64,000 nucleotides of DNA from Bdellovibrionales bacterium. Its GTDB lineage: Bacteria > Bdellovibrionota > Bdellovibrionia > Bdellovibrionales > UBA1609. How positions within the stretch are numbered: position 1 is the first letter of the stretch; each line of letters starts with the position of its first letter. Below the pieces are notes generated by a model. The model worked only from the letters and a program-made list of their open reading frames with translations, made no database searches and had not been told where the DNA came from. This document shows, one piece after another, positions 6,567-60,429 of this stretch. A program made the translations under genes and the position numbers. The stretch lies in the NCBI GenBank assembly GCA_027459485.1, contig DAIDIG010000006.1:62001-126000 (forward strand), read 5' to 3'.

Positions 6567-7483
6567 TCAATGCCTGGTCGCACCTTCGGCGTTCCGTTCG
6601 CTTTCAGCCGCTCGTTCAACTCACGACCTTCACGGTTTTAGTTGCAAGTTTTCTCGTGCTGATTATTGCCGTTACTTTTCAGCAGAACTTTGCTTCGGTA
6701 CTTACGCATTGGGGCCGGCAAGTTAAGGTCGATGTCTACATGCAAGACAGCGCGACCGACGTGCAGACTGCGGCGGTCAAAAGCAAAATTGAATCGTCCC
6801 GCTTATTCGCGAATATTCATTATTTTACGAAAGATCAGGCCGCCGCGCGATTCAAAGATCGAATGGGCAAATATTTGCCGGGGTTGCTTGATGATTTGGG
6901 AGCGGATAATCCATTGCCGGCCAGCTTCGAGCTTGAAGCGACTAAAGGCGTCGTATCGCAGCGGGCATACGAGCATCTTCTTGCGTTTGCCAGAGCATTA
7001 AAAAAGCAGGCCGGTGTCGACGATGTGTCATATGGCCAAGGGTGGGTCGAAAACTACGCCTCGGCTCTTCATGCATTTTCCGTTTCAGTGGTTGTTTTAA
7101 TGTTCGTCTTGCTTATCGGCGCGGCCTTCGTTGTGGGCAATGCCGTTGGTAACTCCGTCACACAAAGGCGGGACGAAATTGAGATTATGGAACTATTCGG
7201 TGCGACTCGAAGCATGATCATTCGGCCGTATATATTTGAAGGTTTCGCAATGGGGTTTGCCGCAGCGGCAACAGCACTCATATTCGCGCATGGTCTTTAT
7301 TCGTACGAATACAAAGTCATGAGTCAAAGCCTTTCGTTTTGGAATTTTCAATCCTCTATGCGGTTCTTATCCGCAGCGCGAATATTTTTGGCTCTCTTGA
7401 GCGGCGCCTTTCTCGGGGGGCTTTCCGCTTACTTGTGGGCCCGCAAAGTCGCAACCGGTTGGGCAGCCGCCGAGGCTAAGTGA
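6563..7483 (+). CDS. ftsX: Cell division permease-like protein FtsX
   Basis: 306 residues. A first membrane segment near residues 20-45 is followed by a periplasmic loop of about 120 residues, then three membrane helices in the second half, the typical four-helix FtsX layout. The cytoplasmic loop contains NSVTQRRDEIEIMELFGAT, a family hallmark at the FtsE contact. FtsX has no transport activity in known systems; it passes the ATP-driven signal from FtsE to an EnvC-like activator, encoded next with a short overlap. Confidence 0.95.
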   Translation: MINAWSHLRRSVRFQPLVQLTTFTVLVASFLVLIIAVTFQQNFASVLTHWGRQVKVDVYMQDSATDVQTAAVKSKIESSRLFANIHYFTKDQAAARFKDRMGKYLPGLLDDLGADNPLPASFELEATKGVVSQRAYEHLLAFARALKKQAGVDDVSYGQGWVENYASALHAFSVSVVVLMFVLLIGAAFVVGNAVGNSVTQRRDEIEIMELFGATRSMIIRPYIFEGFAMGFAAAATALIFAHGLYSYEYKVMSQSLSFWNFQSSMRFLSAARIFLALLSGAFLGGLSAYLWARKVATGWAAAEAK

Positions 7484-8544
7484 TGATTCGGTTTTTGAAA
7501 TACATACTGTTTTTAACCCTTTTTGCATCAGCCCACGCCTGCGGCGGTTCGCTTGCCGATAAATATCGCGAAGCCGATGGTCAAATGGAGAAACTCGACC
7601 TGGTGAGCCGCCAAGTTATGAGTTCGCTCTATCAAATCAATTTTCGTATGAACCGCGTAAGTAAAAAGCGGGACCGTCTCAGCACTGAACAGGTTTCGGC
7701 CACGCGCCGTGCTGAACAGCTTGCCAGCGCGATCGTGCAGCTTGAAAATCAGATCGCCAGTCAAAGATCTCATTTATCAAAGCGTCTTCGTGCAATGTAT
7801 ATGATTGGAAATGAAGGTGTCGTACGAACGATTTTTTCAGCCTCAAACGGTGTCGAGCTCGACCAAAGTCTCAGGTACTTAAAGATTATCAGCGAACACG
7901 ACCTTCGGCTGATAAAAGACTACAAGCGAAACGTCGCAGAATTATCGAGAAAAAAGCGGCGTCTTAACGTTCGCGTTCGACATCTTTTACGCGTCCGTCG
8001 AGCTCTGGCATTTCAAGAAAACGAGCTTGCCAGAAATCAAAATTCGAAATCGGATCTGCTCAAGAAATTATCGGTGGCGCGGCGCGCGGCGCTCGAACAG
8101 TTGGCGGCTATTCGGGTACGAGCGGGAGATTCGGAGTTGATGAATTTAATCAACCTGAGCTTTTTTGATCACAAAGGTCAAATGGCATGGCCGGTGAAAA
8201 CCAAACCCGCTGTGACATACGGGTTTATCAAATCACCGCGCTACGGTTACACCCTTGAGCATAAGGGCTACGACTTTCATCTTAACGCTCCTCAAAAAAT
8301 TCGAAGTATATTTTCCGGCGAAGTTTCGTTTGCCGGTGATTTGCCCGGTTACGACCGCGTGGTGATTCTCGATCACGGAGACCACTACTATTCCGTCTAT
8401 GCACATCTTCGTCATGTGATAGTCGCGCCGGGCCAAAATGTGACTCGGGGGCAGACATTAGCTTCAGCCGACCAAGATTTGTACTTCGAGATTCGACATT
8501 TTTCGGATGCGATCAACCCTAAACCATGGCTCAATAGTAAATAG
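7483..8544 (+). CDS. EnvC-like murein hydrolase activator (coiled coil plus degenerate LytM/M23 domain)
   Basis: About 353 residues from ATG 7483, which overlaps the ftsX stop (a GTG at 7480 is the alternative). A signal peptide (about 1-20) is followed by a long charged coiled coil (about 30-200) and a C-terminal LytM/M23 domain (about 240-350). In active M23 enzymes zinc is bound by HxxxD and a distal HxH. Here HKGYDF and YAHL are present, but the last ligand position reads LYFEIR with Tyr instead of His. A missing zinc ligand is typical of EnvC, which activates amidases instead of cutting murein. The ftsE-ftsX neighbours support that role. Confidence 0.9.
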   Translation: MIRFLKYILFLTLFASAHACGGSLADKYREADGQMEKLDLVSRQVMSSLYQINFRMNRVSKKRDRLSTEQVSATRRAEQLASAIVQLENQIASQRSHLSKRLRAMYMIGNEGVVRTIFSASNGVELDQSLRYLKIISEHDLRLIKDYKRNVAELSRKKRRLNVRVRHLLRVRRALAFQENELARNQNSKSDLLKKLSVARRAALEQLAAIRVRAGDSELMNLINLSFFDHKGQMAWPVKTKPAVTYGFIKSPRYGYTLEHKGYDFHLNAPQKIRSIFSGEVSFAGDLPGYDRVVILDHGDHYYSVYAHLRHVIVAPGQNVTRGQTLASADQDLYFEIRHFSDAINPKPWLNSK

Positions 8545-8612
8545 AGCGCGAAGCGAAAATGCGGGCGTAACCGGCTGACGGCGTCTGGCAAATCGACGCG
8601 CGGAGGATCAAC

Positions 8613-9974
8613 ATGAAGCGTATCATTCTTGCCGCTGCACTTGTTTCAACAATCGCGTTTGGCTTTTCGCTCGGCGAATTTCACGTCGCCCACGCCGCGA
8701 CGTCGGATCGTTACGACGAACTTCAGTTATTCGCTAAAGTGCTCAATCTGGTACAAGAATATTACGTCGAAAAAGTGGATACTAAAAAATTGATATATGG
8801 CGGGATAAAAGGGATGCTGCGTGAGCTCGATCCGCACACAAATTTTTTGCCTCCTGAAATTTTCAAAGAATTTGAAAACGAGACGGCAGGTCAATTCGGC
8901 GGGCTCGGTATTGAAATGACAATTAAGGACGGCATTTTAACCGTAATTTCGCCGATTGAAGATACCCCGGCTTACAAGGCGGGCATCAAGCCCGGCGATA
9001 AGATCGTCACAATCAACGGTGAGTCGACAAAAGGGTTAAGCCTCGTTGAGGCCGCTGAAAAAATGAAAGGCCGCCGGGGTTCAAAAGTAATTTTGGGGAT
9101 CTACCGCCCCGGATTTGACGCGCCAAAAGATTTCGCGGTGAAACGAGGGGTGGTTAAAATTCGCTCGGTCAAATACACAGATATGGGCGATGGCTATGCG
9201 TACATCCGTCTCACAAGTTTCATCGAAAATTCGGGCCGCGATATGAAAAAGGCGCTCGCGGCTCATATTAAAAAGCACCATGGCATTAAGGGGTTGATAC
9301 TTGATTTACGGCACAACCCCGGCGGCCTACTTGATCAAGCGGTTGCCATCGCCAATCTCTTTATCGATAAGGGTGTGATCGTGTCGACGATGGACCGCGA
9401 CAAAAAACAGAAGCAAGTGATGTATGCCCATCCGGAAGACGCGTTACCGAAATTCCCGCTCATTGTGCTGATCGACGGTTATTCCGCAAGCGCGAGTGAA
9501 ATTCTAGCGGGAGCGCTACAAGACCATCACAGGGCTCTCATCATGGGGCAGCGGAGTTTCGGTAAGGGATCTGTCCAGTCGGTCGTCAAACTTGGCGATG
9601 GTTCGGGTCTAAAGTTGACGGTTGCCCGGTACTATACACCGAGTGGCCGTTCGATTCAGAACGAGGGCATCATGCCAAATGTGATCGTGCCCAACCTTGA
9701 TAGTGAAATCATTCAGAAGGCGATGATCAAGACAAGAACCGAACGTGAAAGTGACATGCAGGGGCATTTGGCTAATGACGAAGACGATGAGTCGTCGGGC
9801 TCCGCCAAAGCCAAGCCACTCTCAAGCCGAGCTGTTTTAATGCACATTTTTTGGGATGACGAAGCGGCGGCGAAATCGGTTCGTTCGCCGCTTGCAAAAA
9901 TGTTAAGAAACGACTTCCAACTATTGCAAGCGTATAACTACTTGCGTAGCTGGCGAGTTATCAAATCATTTTGA
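8613..9974 (+). CDS. C-terminal processing peptidase (S41 family, CtpA-like)
   Basis: 453 residues, start supported by GGAGG upstream. A signal peptide (about 1-28) indicates periplasmic location. A PDZ domain (about 95-175) with the GLGIEM binding loop precedes the S41 protease domain. The catalytic dyad is Ser293 in YSASASEI and Lys318 in FGKGS, spaced 25 apart as in Prc. Such enzymes clip C-termini of envelope proteins and often regulate murein hydrolases, which fits the location behind ftsE-ftsX-envC. The extreme 3' end overlaps the convergent HAMP gene by nine bases. Confidence 0.95.
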   Translation: MKRIILAAALVSTIAFGFSLGEFHVAHAATSDRYDELQLFAKVLNLVQEYYVEKVDTKKLIYGGIKGMLRELDPHTNFLPPEIFKEFENETAGQFGGLGIEMTIKDGILTVISPIEDTPAYKAGIKPGDKIVTINGESTKGLSLVEAAEKMKGRRGSKVILGIYRPGFDAPKDFAVKRGVVKIRSVKYTDMGDGYAYIRLTSFIENSGRDMKKALAAHIKKHHGIKGLILDLRHNPGGLLDQAVAIANLFIDKGVIVSTMDRDKKQKQVMYAHPEDALPKFPLIVLIDGYSASASEILAGALQDHHRALIMGQRSFGKGSVQSVVKLGDGSGLKLTVARYYTPSGRSIQNEGIMPNVIVPNLDSEIIQKAMIKTRTERESDMQGHLANDEDDESSGSAKAKPLSSRAVLMHIFWDDEAAAKSVRSPLAKMLRNDFQLLQAYNYLRSWRVIKSF

Positions 9975-54595: not shown

Positions 54596-55972
54596 ATGTC
54601 AGAATCTGTGTCTCACGTTCACAACGTTGAACGCGCGGCCGAAACAACGGCGCTCACTCGACAACTCGGTCTGTGGTCGGCCGTTTTCATGTGCATGGGC
54701 AGCGAAATCGGCTCCGGCGTATTTCTGGTTTCGTCCGACATTGCTAGTGCTTTGAGTTCGCCGATGGTCGGTCTTTTAGTTTGGCTCGCGGCGGGGGCCA
54801 TCTCGTTAGCGGGAGCGTTGCTGTTTGCCGAATTGGGGACGATGTTCCCACGCGCGGGCGGTCAATATGTGTTTCTGCGCGAAGCGTACCATCCGCTTGT
54901 GTCTTTTCTTTACGGTTGGACGAATATTTTTGTCATTCAAGCCGGCACGATTGCGGGCGTCGCCGCGGCGTTTTCTAAATTTCTGATGCCGTTCTTCCCC
55001 ATGGTGCGAGTCGGGCGTGAAACGTCGGCGACAATTATCATCATTGTGTTGACGGTATTGAATTTCGTTGGCATCAAACGCGGCGCTCAACTGCTCGATG
55101 CGGTGACTTCGTTCAAAGTCGTCGCGATTCTCGGGTTGATTGTTTACGTTTTATTCTGGAGCCCGCATGGCTCCGTTTCGCCGATGCACTTTTCGTTGGG
55201 CAATTCGACGTTTTCAGCGTTTGGCGTCGCCCTGCTTGCCGCATTCTGGGCATTCGACGGTTGGTACGCCATCACCTTCGTAGCGGGAGAAATGAAAAAC
55301 CCGGCGCGCGATATTCCGCTTTCATCGCTTATCGCCATCATCGGCACGACCGCACTCTACGTTTTGTGCTCGTACGCCTACTACAAAGTTCTGCCGTCGG
55401 CGCAAATCGCGCACTCGTCGTTCGTGGCGGCCGAGGCTGTCAAAATTTTGGGCGGCGATATGGCTGTTCGAATACTCGGTATCGTGGTGATCGTATCCGT
55501 TATCGGGTGTCTGAATGCGACGATTATTTCGGGTGCTCGGGTGATTTACGCGATGGCGAACGACAACGTGCTGCCGCATAAATTGGCGGTGGTGAACCCA
55601 AAAACTCACTCGCCGAATCGCGCCCTCACACTGCAAATGATATGGAGTATCCTACTTGTGTGGAGCGGCACATACGATCAGCTTTTCACTTACGTGATTT
55701 TCGCCGGGTTTATGTTTTATGGTCTCACAGCCGCAGCGGTGATGTGGTTACGCCGGACAAAGCCGGCGCACGATCGGCCGTATAAAGTGCCGTGGTATCC
55801 GGTTTTGCCGATCGTTTACATCTTGTTTACCATCGCCTTTACAATCAATTCACTTGTTGAAAGACCGAAAGAGTCGATGGCGGGTCTTTTGATTGTTGCG
55901 ACCGGTTTACCGGCATTTTATGTGATGAAACGGCTGGCAATGAAAAAGCCGATCGCAAATGCGGTGACATGA
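54596..55972 (+). CDS. APC-family amino acid permease
   Basis: 458 residues, ATG 54596 with GGAG eight bases upstream. About twelve membrane helices; the first begins with MGSEIGSGVFLVSSDIA, the conserved broken helix (GxG) that contacts the substrate. Resembles the LAT/AdiC-type antiporters and ethanolamine-type permeases. The substrate cannot be determined. The 3' end overlaps the opposing rhomboid-fusion gene by 55 bases. Third gene of a likely uptake operon. Confidence 0.9.
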   Translation: MSESVSHVHNVERAAETTALTRQLGLWSAVFMCMGSEIGSGVFLVSSDIASALSSPMVGLLVWLAAGAISLAGALLFAELGTMFPRAGGQYVFLREAYHPLVSFLYGWTNIFVIQAGTIAGVAAAFSKFLMPFFPMVRVGRETSATIIIIVLTVLNFVGIKRGAQLLDAVTSFKVVAILGLIVYVLFWSPHGSVSPMHFSLGNSTFSAFGVALLAAFWAFDGWYAITFVAGEMKNPARDIPLSSLIAIIGTTALYVLCSYAYYKVLPSAQIAHSSFVAAEAVKILGGDMAVRILGIVVIVSVIGCLNATIISGARVIYAMANDNVLPHKLAVVNPKTHSPNRALTLQMIWSILLVWSGTYDQLFTYVIFAGFMFYGLTAAAVMWLRRTKPAHDRPYKVPWYPVLPIVYILFTIAFTINSLVERPKESMAGLLIVATGLPAFYVMKRLAMKKPIANAVT

Positions 55973-57618
55973 TTGATTTCGAGCGCGACTCCGGTTGTGA
56001 TGCATCCGAGAAGAGCCGACACGATCACCGCGCTAGCTAAGATCCCGCGATATTTTGTCATGTAAGCCGTTGCGCCGATGCAACTGAAAATCCCGAGAGA
56101 ACAGCCGATGTCGACTTCGTTCAAGAATGCGGGCAAGGCGGCGGGCCAAAAAAGCTTCAACATCGGGAACATCGCCAGCGACGTCAAAACGTTTGAAAAC
56201 ATTGAACCCGCCAAAAATGCGATACAGGTCACGGTTGATCCGATAATGACTTCGCAAAAAGCAACCAAGGTAAATAAGAGGACGAGGTTGAAGCTAAGGT
56301 GAAATAAATTCCAGTGGAGAAGCCCTGGTAAGACCAACGTCGCGAGACTGTTCAGCGCCGAGTGCGCGTGGAACATGTGATTCCAAGAATAAACGTATCG
56401 CCACTTGATGTAAGACCGAATTTTTCCCTGATTGTTCATCGTGAGCACATAAACCATGATATTGGTTGCGATCAAAGCCAGTGTGATCGGCATACGCGAA
56501 ATGGCCTCGAGCCAATTCGAAGGTAGCGGCCGGGCGAGCAATTCATTAGGCAAAAGCTTTTCGACAAAGGGCCGCAATTTCGGCTTTTTCAAAGAATGAG
56601 CGAGGGTGGCGGTTAACGTTCGAGCGAAACCACCGGGATAAATAGCGCGAAATAACCCATACCAAGCCCGCCATGAGACTCGCGCAGTTGCCGATACTAA
56701 AAAAAGCGGGCGCCACTCGTTCGGCGAGAATTTTTCTTTGTAAGCATGCAAAGACTGAAAGCCGTATACGGAATTTCCGCGTCGAAAAATAAAATCAAGG
56801 GCGCTGTATAACTTCGGTCGGGCGGATCGTTCAGCGGCGCTCAGGCCGGCAAGCGGTGCCATGCCGAGGGTGATATTCGTTACGCCTTGCCTTTCGAGAT
56901 GCGCAATCGCTTCGATGATTAAAAGTTCAGTCGTGCCGAGTGGCGCTTCCGGGTCGCGAATGAGATCGACCAAATACCAAGCTTTTCGTTGTTGAGTGGG
57001 TACCGCGGCAAGGTAGCCATAAATTTGACCCTCAAACATTAGCATAAAATATTTCTTAAATTTCATGAGGGCCCAAGGGTCGAGACGGTTTAGAAAACCA
57101 AGTGGAACAGAAAGTCGTGAGCCGAGCCACCTGGCGTTAAGAGACTCGAGTTCTGTAAACTCGTCGGCGCTTAAATTTGACGGTTGAAATTCGGTAATTC
57201 TAGCTCCGCGCCGAGAGAGCTGACGTGCTACTGGCAAAGCACGCAATCGGTCGGAGCGCGTGATACTCCCGTCGAGATGAAACCATGGCTCAGTGCCAAT
57301 TTGGACGACAAATTTTTCGCCCGCGCGCAACTGCTCGGCAAGCTCTTGTGAAACCGGTAATATAACGGCGTCTTTGCGCCTCGCCCGAGCGGCGACACCG
57401 AAAGCATCAATGAGCGGCAACCATAGATTCTTATCGCCAACTGGGTCGGATGCGCCGATCCACGCCGTCGGCGTTTCGACATATGCAATAACAGCAGTGT
57501 CTTGGCCGTTGGACCATTCGAAATGCTTGTAGTCTCGATACAAAGTGAGAAACGCAGTTGAAGCGCTTGCATACTTCGAATAAAAATCGATGAGTTGATC
57601 GCGCATATCAAGGCTCAA
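55918..57618 (-). CDS. DUF2156 (lysyl-phosphatidylglycerol synthase-like) domain fused to a rhomboid protease
   Basis: 566 residues from TTG 57618 (GGGAG eight bases upstream). The N-terminal part (about 1-320) matches DUF2156, the double GNAT domain of MprF-type aminoacyl-lipid synthases (IGASDPVGD, AWYLVDLIRDPEAPLGTTELL, LGMAPLAGL). Six hydrophobic segments (about 378-565) form a rhomboid module. Residues aligning with GlpG catalytic and oxyanion positions are all present: H440 and N444 in HWNLFHLSFN, S507 in GCSLG, H550 in NHVTAFAIG. The fusion order differs from MprF, where membrane helices come first. It overlaps the upstream receiver-like gene by four bases. Substrate unknown. Confidence 0.8.
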   Translation of the reverse strand: MSLDMRDQLIDFYSKYASASTAFLTLYRDYKHFEWSNGQDTAVIAYVETPTAWIGASDPVGDKNLWLPLIDAFGVAARARRKDAVILPVSQELAEQLRAGEKFVVQIGTEPWFHLDGSITRSDRLRALPVARQLSRRGARITEFQPSNLSADEFTELESLNARWLGSRLSVPLGFLNRLDPWALMKFKKYFMLMFEGQIYGYLAAVPTQQRKAWYLVDLIRDPEAPLGTTELLIIEAIAHLERQGVTNITLGMAPLAGLSAAERSARPKLYSALDFIFRRGNSVYGFQSLHAYKEKFSPNEWRPLFLVSATARVSWRAWYGLFRAIYPGGFARTLTATLAHSLKKPKLRPFVEKLLPNELLARPLPSNWLEAISRMPITLALIATNIMVYVLTMNNQGKIRSYIKWRYVYSWNHMFHAHSALNSLATLVLPGLLHWNLFHLSFNLVLLFTLVAFCEVIIGSTVTCIAFLAGSMFSNVLTSLAMFPMLKLFWPAALPAFLNEVDIGCSLGIFSCIGATAYMTKYRGILASAVIVSALLGCITTGVALEINHVTAFAIGFFIASRFIT

Positions 57619-58742
57619 GCGATGGGCTCCCTAATATGAAGCTGAGAAATCTCTCGAATCTGCGGGTGCATCGGGCAGTAATTCAAAGCATCTTTGAAAA
57701 TCTCATCGCTGCTTTTAATGCGGATTCGGCCAAGATGCGCGGCCGGGGTGCAGGGGTTTAAACGTAAAGCTGATTCATAAGCTGAAAAAGCTTCGCCTTC
57801 GAGACCGAGTTTTTCATAGGCGTGCCCTACAGTTTCAGAAACCTCCCAAAAATTCGGGTACATCAATTTCACGCGCCGCAGGTCGGATTTGGCGAATTTA
57901 ATGTTGCCGTGTTTTATGATATCGCGAAATTGTCTGACCTTCTCTCGAGCCGCCCACCGACTAATTAGACGATTTGATGTCAGCTTGAGCAGCGCCGTCC
58001 AACACGTAACTAGGTTTGTTGAATACCCCTGAAGATCGAAAAATATTTCGCTGTATTGGCGCAAGGCTCGAGTTTTGCCGGGATCTCGAGATAAAAATAC
58101 GATCGGGGTCAAGCTACCGTGGTGGGACCTTTTAAATTTAGCAGCCCAATTGACCATATCATCTGTTGCGCAGTCCTCACATATCAATATCGTGCCGATT
58201 CGGGCCCCGTGCTTTTCTAAAAGTGTTTTGAGTTCAATTGTATTTTTGACCTGCTCAACGGCGTGCCAATGCGAGCGGGGTCCGGCTTCGAACAAAGCCT
58301 CTAAAGCGTCGGCGTGTCCGCGAGTGGAGACAAGAACCAAAATGTCTCGAAATCGCGCCCGCTGTTCGTTCGCTTTTTGAATCGCCTGGTGGAGCTGTTT
58401 GGCGCCGAGAGGGCGCGAGACAACGGAGTCGATGCGGCGAAATCGGGCCGATGGCGCCCGTGCAGCGACTTCACCCCCGAATGCTCCGTCAGCTATAAAT
58501 ACAAATGGCACAAGATCGACGTCCGGCCTATTGCGAAATATTGAAAATAACTGAAAACGGTTAGGATCCGTCGGGTCGAAACAAGCGATGACGAGTTGAA
58601 GGCGGCTCTTTTCGCGCTCGACATAATAGCGCAAATGGGCAAGCGAGCGAGCTGGTAAAATTTGGCCGTAACCGAAATCAAGTAAGAGTCTTTCAAGTAC
58701 GCCTAATGTTTGTTTGTCTAAGCTGTAGATAATGGCCGACAA
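57615..58742 (-). CDS. Double degenerate receiver plus TPR protein coupled to the rhomboid fusion
   Basis: 375 residues from TTG 58742 (GGAG ten bases upstream). Two receiver-like domains (about 1-125 and 130-255) are followed by a helical TPR-like region (about 270-375; EAFSAYESALRLNPCTPAAHL). Domain 1 keeps an acidic CFDPTD where the phosphoacceptor should be, but the helper acidic pair and the Lys (VSRPLG, normally KP) are altered. Domain 2 keeps ICEDCATDD but is also atypical. It may be a scaffold that reads phosphorylation or proteins. The 3' end overlaps the rhomboid gene by four bases. Confidence 0.7.
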   Translation of the reverse strand: MSAIIYSLDKQTLGVLERLLLDFGYGQILPARSLAHLRYYVEREKSRLQLVIACFDPTDPNRFQLFSIFRNRPDVDLVPFVFIADGAFGGEVAARAPSARFRRIDSVVSRPLGAKQLHQAIQKANEQRARFRDILVLVSTRGHADALEALFEAGPRSHWHAVEQVKNTIELKTLLEKHGARIGTILICEDCATDDMVNWAAKFKRSHHGSLTPIVFLSRDPGKTRALRQYSEIFFDLQGYSTNLVTCWTALLKLTSNRLISRWAAREKVRQFRDIIKHGNIKFAKSDLRRVKLMYPNFWEVSETVGHAYEKLGLEGEAFSAYESALRLNPCTPAAHLGRIRIKSSDEIFKDALNYCPMHPQIREISQLHIREPIA

Positions 58743-58813: not shown

Positions 58814-59566
58814 GTGTCGATCATTCAGGCCATATTATTCTCATTACTAATGGCAATTGCGAAGGCGGGCTTGGGCGATAACCGGCTCAGTGGAGTCAAA
58901 GGCTTCTACACGCCCCGCATCTCGAGTCTCATCGCGCAGGTCGAATCGGGTGATGCCCCGAAACCACAGTCATCTATCGAGCTGACTTGTTACCGTCACC
59001 CGTCAGACAAGTACTACATCGGCGTCAAACAAGTTCTTTTGATTCATGCGGCAATTGAAAAGGTGAAGGCAGTTCTCGACGATATCAACAATTATGATCA
59101 TTTGTTTCCGGGTTACAAAGATGTTCGTGTCGTCAGCCGCAATGGTGCTGACCTTCTCACTTACTGGGAGCAAACCGCGCCTCTGCCGATTATCCCGAAT
59201 ATCAAATACGAAATTTTGTACCACATCAGTGAACTGAAAAATTCGGCGCGGCTCTATCGTTATCAGTTATACAAACCTACGCGTATCACGGCCAGCGACG
59301 GATTTATTTTGATCAGGAGTGTGGACGCGGCCACGACTTCTTACGTGGAGTATGATTTTTTTAACGCCAATTGGGGTGCCGCTAAAATTTTAGGTGCGAA
59401 AAAAATCTGGCGAGACTCAGTCGAAGGCCTGGCGTTATCAGACCTTGCCACCAAACTTCGCGCTGAGAATGATTCTTGGTCGGACGAAAGGTCGCGTCGT
59501 GAGAGCCGTAAATGGCTGAAGAGAGAGCAAGTCGAAAACTGCGTGAACCATCGAATCGCGTTGTAG
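58814..59566 (+). CDS. Exported START/SRPBCC-type lipid-binding-like protein
   Basis: 250 residues from GTG 58814. The N-terminal hydrophobic segment (about 2-20, ending in AKAG) looks like a signal peptide. The central part (about 65-215) matches the START/polyketide-cyclase fold with the hallmark KVKAVLDDINNYDHLFPGYKDVRVV. Such domains bind lipids or hydrophobic ligands. It diverges from the double-receiver gene by 71 bases; possible functional link to the lipid-modifying-like DUF2156 protein next to it is inference. Confidence 0.75.
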   Translation: MSIIQAILFSLLMAIAKAGLGDNRLSGVKGFYTPRISSLIAQVESGDAPKPQSSIELTCYRHPSDKYYIGVKQVLLIHAAIEKVKAVLDDINNYDHLFPGYKDVRVVSRNGADLLTYWEQTAPLPIIPNIKYEILYHISELKNSARLYRYQLYKPTRITASDGFILIRSVDAATTSYVEYDFFNANWGAAKILGAKKIWRDSVEGLALSDLATKLRAENDSWSDERSRRESRKWLKREQVENCVNHRIAL

Positions 59567-59592: not shown

Positions 59593-60429
59593 CTACAAAT
59601 CAAACGCGAGGCCGGCGTAGGCGAACTGTTGAGTCGCGCACTTGTACTGCAGGTATTTCATTCGCGGGTCATTGCCATTGTAGTATCCGATCAGGGCGCG
59701 CATGCCTTGGGTATGCCCTTCGCTGAAGTGATCGGCGGCGGCAAAACCCGCTTGCACGTTCACGGTCATATTCATGTCCTTGACGCCGCCTTCGACGAGG
59801 CTTGCCGCAAAATAAGGTCGGATTTGCTGCGGAGTCGGCGACGCGCCGAGCGGGTACCATTCGGCAAATTGTTCGGCCCAGAGAAATTTCATGTTCGGGT
59901 GTGACATGAAATATGGCTTAAGCCCCGCACCCAAACGCCAACGCCGGTCGATGTCGTGCACGACGCGCATATCGAGTGATTCATTGCCCACGTCGACGTA
60001 CATCAGGCTCGGGTCGGCGATGTTGTCAGAAATATGGCCGGATTCGTGCGTCCAGATAATCGCCATTCTCCACGTTTTGGTGAATTCCATGTCATAGCTG
60101 AGCCCGACGCGCGCATCGATGGTTTCGAATTTGGTTTCGGTCATTCCGTTTGCGTCCTGTAATCTGTAAGATGCGTTGGCAGAGCCGTGAATAACCAACT
60201 GACCCGGATACTTAAGGTCGGGAAACCCGAGAAGAGCGACGGCGCCGCCCAGAGCCCCCCACGCATTGCCGCCGCTTCGCCCGTAGAGTTCGGATTGCGG
60301 GTCGAAAAACAACCCGTAGGATTCATATTGACCGAAATCGGATTGCGGATTGATGACAAGTTTCGCAAACGCGACGGACGAGATAAACAATGTAATAAGA
60401 ACGGCCAAAGTCACAATTTTAGTTTTCAT
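59593..60429 (-). CDS. Outer-membrane protein, DUF1207-like
   Basis: 278 residues. The signal peptide ends at VAFA (about residue 22). Alternating polar and hydrophobic strands, a THESGHISDN motif near residue 120 and a C-terminus ending in Phe-Asp-Leu fit a beta-barrel. The HESxH motif and the final QQFAYAGL resemble DUF1207 proteins. No ribosome binding site is apparent. It diverges from another outer-membrane protein. Substrate unknown. Confidence 0.7.
   Translation of the reverse strand: MKTKIVTLAVLITLFISSVAFAKLVINPQSDFGQYESYGLFFDPQSELYGRSGGNAWGALGGAVALLGFPDLKYPGQLVIHGSANASYRLQDANGMTETKFETIDARVGLSYDMEFTKTWRMAIIWTHESGHISDNIADPSLMYVDVGNESLDMRVVHDIDRRWRLGAGLKPYFMSHPNMKFLWAEQFAEWYPLGASPTPQQIRPYFAASLVEGGVKDMNMTVNVQAGFAAADHFSEGHTQGMRALIGYYNGNDPRMKYLQYKCATQQFAYAGLAFDL

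Follow-up and report, generated by a model that had tools for sequence, protein, structure and literature searches.

An MprF-type synthase domain fused to a divergent rhomboid in a Bdellovibrionales bacterium and its relatives

In MprF, as described in PMC8131360 and PMC11980842, a cytosolic synthase domain that uses phosphatidylglycerol and aminoacyl-tRNA is joined to a membrane domain that moves lipid across the membrane. Active rhomboid proteases carry GxSx and A/GH motifs, with a WR motif in approximately 80% of members, according to a review (PMC12615303), and the functions of bacterial rhomboids are described as largely unknown in PMC7231995. In mitochondria, the rhomboid PARL is tied to a lipid carrier of the START fold, STARD7 (PMC9928583). 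Here we describe a gene that combines a synthase domain of the MprF type and a divergent rhomboid in a single protein. It lies in a stretch of 64,000 nucleotides from a Bdellovibrionales bacterium (assembly GCA_027459485.1, contig DAIDIG010000006.1, positions 62,001 to 126,000 of the forward strand), referred to as the window and numbered from its first letter.

The fused gene occupies positions 55918..57618 of the minus strand as one open frame of 566 amino acids, with a TTG start and an AGGGAG sequence 8 nt upstream of it; the plus strand of the same region is full of stop codons. A previous sequence-only reading of the window had placed an MprF-type DUF2156 region and a rhomboid in one frame at these coordinates, and both Pfam domains are indeed found above their cut-offs in this protein. 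The N-terminal domain (residues 15–308; 56695..57576, minus strand), a dual GNAT domain, is matched by PF09924 (LPG_synthase_C/DUF2156) with E=4.9e-38 and 131.3 bits for a cut-off of 27.5, over profile positions 6–297 of 298. A sequence search of the PDB with the fused protein retrieved MprF structures, the best being 7f47 at 8.3e-22, so that the MprF-type character ascribed to this region stands. Among NCBIfam profiles, that of MprF scored 131.4 bits, far below its cut-off of 600, while those of LysX (2.3e-9) and GlpG (a weak match) also remained below their cut-offs.

The protein resembles MprF in that the same synthase domain is joined to a membrane domain within one chain. It differs from it in the nature and order of the membrane part: the PF03706 flippase of MprF is N-terminal to the synthase, whereas here a rhomboid is C-terminal to it, and the Pfam scan revealed no PF03706 domain in the fused protein. 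PF09924 is also shared with LysX-type fusions and with stand-alone LPG_synthase_C proteins; unlike the former, the fused protein gave no tRNA ligase domain in the Pfam scan, and ten of the latter, from relatives, form a separate group (starred) on a tree of the GNAT region. We found no published description of a PF09924–PF01694 fusion in a literature search to which most subscription papers and the domain-architecture databases, where it may be listed, were out of reach; within that scope, the architecture is as unfamiliar as the sequence-only reading had judged it.

The arrangement recurs across much of the phylum and is not a one-off. A contig scan of genomes yielded one relative (L006), with the same proteins as genome G005. 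A search profile built from four fused proteins was then applied at three ranks. In the order, matches were obtained in 4 of the 140 genomes (E<=1e-15); the class yielded 5 of 143 and the phylum 34 of 368, the latter with 40 places (E<=1e-10 in both). Open frames were taken at all 40 places (the window, L006 and 38 neighbourhoods), and seven were dropped before residues were counted: L072 (222 aa, at a contig end), L074, L076, L084, L086 and L089 (351–403 aa, lacking the full membrane module), and L088, an MprF with PF03706 in the order given above. The 33 remaining loci, the window included, carry a GNAT domain and an alignable C-terminal membrane module and come from 29 of the 368 genomes; a chance frame or an assembly chimera is ruled out by this repeated occurrence. 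They split into group 1 (21 loci, including the window) and group 2 (12 loci). Searches outside these genomes gave no relatives among 57 matched stretches of viral contigs, and none of the 90 plasmid records matched covered 80% of the query.

The C-terminal module (residues 366–566; 55921..56523, minus strand) is, as judged from profile comparisons, a true but divergent rhomboid. PF01694 matches residues 425–546 at 23.6 bits, barely above the cut-off of 22.6; in a whole-genome search the fused protein scored 26.1 bits, versus 86–95.5 bits for the three other rhomboids of the genome. The single fused protein, compared by sequence to the PDB, gave no rhomboid structures among its matches. Crude hydropathy, too coarse to tell single helices apart, shows several hydrophobic stretches within residues 372–566 that are compatible with six helices. 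AlphaFold2 models from two-row alignments were unusable (pLDDT 40.0 for the whole protein and 44.3 for the C-terminal module).

We aligned 16 of the 21 group-1 C-terminal domains (alignment A2). Four of the domains left out (L053, L062, L063 and L068) are degenerate or carry an extra domain, and L071 was also omitted. PF01694 was matched at E<=1 by 15 of the 16 aligned domains, and by L062, outside the alignment, at 28.1 bits, above the cut-off. When compared to the PDB, the A2 profile retrieved the GlpG homologue 2nr9 (E=6e-7) and the GlpG entry 4njn (3.1e-4), with both alignments confined to the first half of the domain. In a profile–profile comparison by hhalign, A2 was set against E. coli GlpG together with two rhomboids from the genome of the window, reaching 97.8% over 207 columns; the alignment to GlpG paired all 11 named positions, including S507 with S201 and H550 with H254. 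The rhomboid identity proposed earlier is thus upheld, and an artefactual match is ruled out for group 1 by the profile and profile–profile results; the case for group 2 is weaker.

We compared the residues of the window's protein with those of GlpG, with which it shares H145, H150, N154, E166, G170, G199, S201, H254 and G261 at the paired places, and from which it differs in having a large N-terminal GNAT domain. The codons concerned, all on the minus strand and assigned by alignment pairing, are those of His435 (H145; 56314..56316; kept in 20 of the 33 loci), His440 (H150; 56299..56301; 27), Asn444 (N154; 56287..56289; 13), the catalytic Ser507 (S201; 56098..56100; 28) and the catalytic His550 (H254; 55969..55971; 29). 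The GxSx sequence of active rhomboids is present as G505-C-S507-L, and H550 is the histidine of TM6. The spacing of the first three residues had been given as His-x5-His-x4-Asn, which is a miscount for His-x4-His-x3-Asn; the accompanying statement that it is identical to that of GlpG is correct. The wider claim that all the residues that matter are kept goes too far, given the differences at the positions of G202 and G257, before the TM6 histidine and in the WR motif.

The Ser507/His550 pair is intact in 27 of the 33 loci. Within group 1 the counts are 18 for Ser507, 19 for His550, 17 for both, 17 for His440, 20 for His435 and 13 for Asn444 (n=21); within group 2 they are 10 for Ser507, His550, the pair and His440, and 0 for both His435 and Asn444 (n=12). 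In the ten members concerned (L070, L073, L075 and L077–L083), which have the serine, the histidine and the H150 equivalent, H145 is replaced by Tyr or Phe and N154 is absent. Seven of the ten best-conserved positions of the C-terminal module (n=201) are among the 11 GlpG signature positions (hypergeometric 1.6e-8, a figure that is an illustration, as the 11 positions were picked after earlier alignments had been seen); at one of these seven, 508, the conserved residue is Leu rather than Gly.

The retention of the Ser507/His550 pair in most loci points to a strong constraint that favours a protease, and catalysis best accounts for the constraint on the serine, the histidine and the H150 equivalent among such divergent sequences. 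We therefore take as the most likely reading that the fused protein joins a lipid aminoacyltransferase dependent on tRNA to a rhomboid that would still be proteolytic in most lineages, including that of the window; to this proposal we give about an even chance of being right. The protein would then be a bifunctional protein of the inner membrane. By analogy with MprF, its dual-GNAT domain should act in the cytosol, transferring an amino acid from aminoacyl-tRNA to a lipid of the inner leaflet, which on family grounds would probably be phosphatidylglycerol. The rhomboid would occupy the place held by the flippase in MprF and, to judge from the conserved residues, could be an active Ser-His intramembrane protease in most lineages, with a site predicted from GlpG topology to face the periplasm. 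A coupling of lipid modification to the cleavage of membrane proteins, as raised by the sequence-only reading, is something that we infer only. If the proposal is true, MprF-type synthases would have a second kind of membrane partner.

A number of observations weigh against this proposal. The position of GlpG G202 is Leu508 in the fused protein, and Gly follows the catalytic serine in none of the 33 loci (Leu in 25, Asn in 5); G257 corresponds to Ala553. Asn549 precedes His550, where the A/GH motif of active rhomboids has Ala or Gly. The WR motif of loop L1 is absent from the place aligned to GlpG W136-R137, the sole WR of the protein being at 406, 29 residues ahead of His435, and L006 lacks most of loop L1. 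No Pfam rhomboid match was obtained at E<=0.1 for L053, L063, L068, L071, L085 and L087. Group 2 is by itself weakly rhomboid-like: in an alignment of 8 of its 12 members (A3), PF01694 matches were weak in 5 of the 8 (best 2.3e-4), the A3 profile gave no rhomboid structures among its PDB matches, and hhalign to canonical rhomboids reached 42.8%. Alignment of A3 to A2 by the same program reached 98.3%, and group 2 would appear to be a second, more distant rhomboid-like type.

Finally, the catalytic dyad is absent in 6 of the 33 loci, namely L053, L063, L066 (Ser to Thr), L068, L085 and L087. A quickly built tree of 49 GNAT-region rows places group 1 in a clade with 88% support and group 2, together with its truncated relatives, in a starred clade of 15 rows. 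The state of the dyad in the 33 rows changes at least five times on this tree, a rough count given that 22 of the 46 inner branches are open and that several rows have considerable length. This repeated change suggests that some members are pseudoproteases and that their lineages do without catalysis. All six dyad-less loci have kept genes that usually neighbour the fused gene (three in L053 and L063, two in L068 and L085, one in L066 and L087). Repeated dyad loss beside kept neighbours would allow pseudoproteases to be compared with proteases in a single naturally occurring system, and it leaves room, at least at these loci, for the scaffold role that had been offered as an alternative.

In that alternative, the rhomboid fold would be a non-proteolytic lipid-handling module that thins or distorts the bilayer, giving the GNAT domain access or allowing lipid to cross, much like the flippase of MprF. 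We consider this possible, and less probable than a protease. It is in agreement with the dyad losses and with neighbouring genes that look lipid-related; moreover, this type of synthase domain is described in MprF as the partner of a lipid flippase or scramblase, and derlins and other inactive rhomboids are described as thinning membranes. It is less easily reconciled with the serine, the histidine and the H150 equivalent being among the best-conserved positions, a conservation that would be superfluous in a pure scaffold, or with the genome of the window already encoding, elsewhere, one stand-alone protein of the PF03706 flippase family (PF09924 is found in the fused protein alone).

It is unlikely that the rhomboid part is a mere anchor for the GNAT domain, with no function of its own and with conserved residues that only hold the fold. 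The truncated relatives L074 (383 aa) and L076 (370 aa), devoid of the membrane module, fit such a role, as does the repeated loss of the dyad, but conservation is concentrated at catalytic and signature positions, against a column mean of 35% for the module. Least probable of all, and in our view very improbable, is that the GNAT domain aminoacylates proteins, such as new N-termini made by the rhomboid, instead of lipids: direct fusion to a protease domain and the existence of GNAT-fold transferases that use aminoacyl-tRNA on peptides or proteins (FemX and leucyl/phenylalanyl-tRNA-protein transferase) speak for it, while the closest sequence relatives are the lipid-acting MprF domains and the active sites of the two domains would be expected on opposite faces of the membrane.

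Three genes often accompany the fused gene. In describing them, we note that the neighbourhood stretches vary in length and that several stop at contig ends, so that absences are soft. The first, a receiver-like/TPR gene (57615..58742, minus strand), shares a 4-nt overlap with the start of the fused gene and adjoins it directly in 14 of the 21 group-1 loci and in none of the 12 of group 2 (the upstream side of L058 being out of view). Its product in the window has a sub-threshold TPR match. PF00072 was above its cut-off in the relatives from L060 and L061, whose receivers are full and carry the Asp, and weak in that from L052; no match was seen in the L006 protein (E<=0.1) or in that of the window (E<=1), which, for this reason, is a decayed receiver at most. 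The receiver thus seems to be decayed in one branch.

The second gene (58814..59566, plus strand, divergent) encodes a START/SRPBCC-like protein with a signal-like N-terminus and weak Polyketide_cyc matches. It is present in 18 of the 33 neighbourhoods (12 of 21 in group 1 and 6 of 12 in group 2); among the 18 members, Polyketide_cyc2 is matched weakly by 8 and Polyketide_cyc by 6, and the family profile retrieved polyketide cyclase structures from the PDB (7.7e-4, approximately 45 positions). The third (59593..60429, minus strand) is DUF1207-like, with a signal-like N-terminus and a PF06727 score of 20.0 bits, below the cut-off of 22. It is found in 9 of the 33 neighbourhoods (7 of 21 and 2 of 12); 3 of the 9 members match PF06727 at E<=10, and a PDB search gave no match. 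The signal-like N-terminus and aromatic C-terminus lead us to guess that this protein might reside at the outer membrane. The literature search gave no mention of DUF1207. In group-1 members with Asn after the serine (L064, L065, L067, L069 and L071), none of the three usual neighbours was seen, two of these five stretches being shorter than 7.2 kb.

Co-occurrence was analyzed over the 368 genomes, with profiles built from the fused-gene neighbours themselves (18 of the 20 START-like and all 9 DUF1207-like matches). The START-like profile matched 32 genomes, 25 of which are shared with the fused-gene set of 34 (3.0 expected), and the DUF1207-like profile 21, of which 16 are shared (1.9 expected); this set includes MprF and stand-alone matches, and the numbers are uncorrected for kinship, so that the strong excess over expectation comes with p-values that are not to be read literally. 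The co-occurrence is imperfect: the START-like gene is missing from 9 of the 34 fused-gene genomes, and the fused gene from 7 of the 32 START-like genomes and from 5 of the 21 DUF1207-like ones, the five lowest-scoring.

If the fused protein is indeed an aminoacyltransferase with a proteolytic rhomboid, gene linkage suggests that it could act jointly with the receiver/TPR, START-like and DUF1207-like proteins in a process that concerns envelope lipids. The fusion of a rhomboid to a lipid-modifying enzyme, together with the linkage to envelope genes, would point to a process in which the function of rhomboids can be sought. The link of a START-like gene to a rhomboid gene is reminiscent of PARL and STARD7; the difference is that, by eye, the START-like N-termini look like ordinary signal peptides, and for the same reason we do not favour this protein as a substrate of the rhomboid. 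PARL is not known to carry a GNAT domain. On a more speculative reading, which we regard as improbable, lipid aminoacylation and intramembrane proteolysis would be coupled through this single protein, making it a bacterial counterpart of the PARL–STARD7 pairing of rhomboid and lipid carrier. The cytosolic domain would charge an inner-leaflet lipid from tRNA, the rhomboid would sense or use the altered membrane and, on the side of the periplasm, cleave or release a partner, and the modified lipid would be conveyed in the direction of the outer membrane by the linked START-like carrier and the DUF1207-like protein.

The DUF1207-like proteins (alignment A5) carry conserved H-x-S-G-H and E-T-x-D-x-R motifs that could be catalytic. 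The former motif resembles one of PagL-like deacylases, an activity that was considered as a candidate for these proteins; no PagL match was found among Pfam families, and the PDB gave no hit. In L062 (genome G353, 7075–9714, minus strand), the fused protein and a DUF1207-like part occupy a single 880-aa open frame, separated by a signal-like stretch; this arrangement may be a real three-part fusion or reflect a stop missed through a sequencing error. On its other side in the window, the fused gene overlaps a plus-strand amino acid permease gene tail to tail by 55 bases (55918–55972), and the His550 codon lies inside this overlap. Lastly, in an ordinary rhomboid of the same genome (L003, 1048–2043, plus strand), the first hydrophobic segment is separated from the TM2 motif by approximately 130 residues; the start of its gene overlaps the preceding gene by 4 nt.

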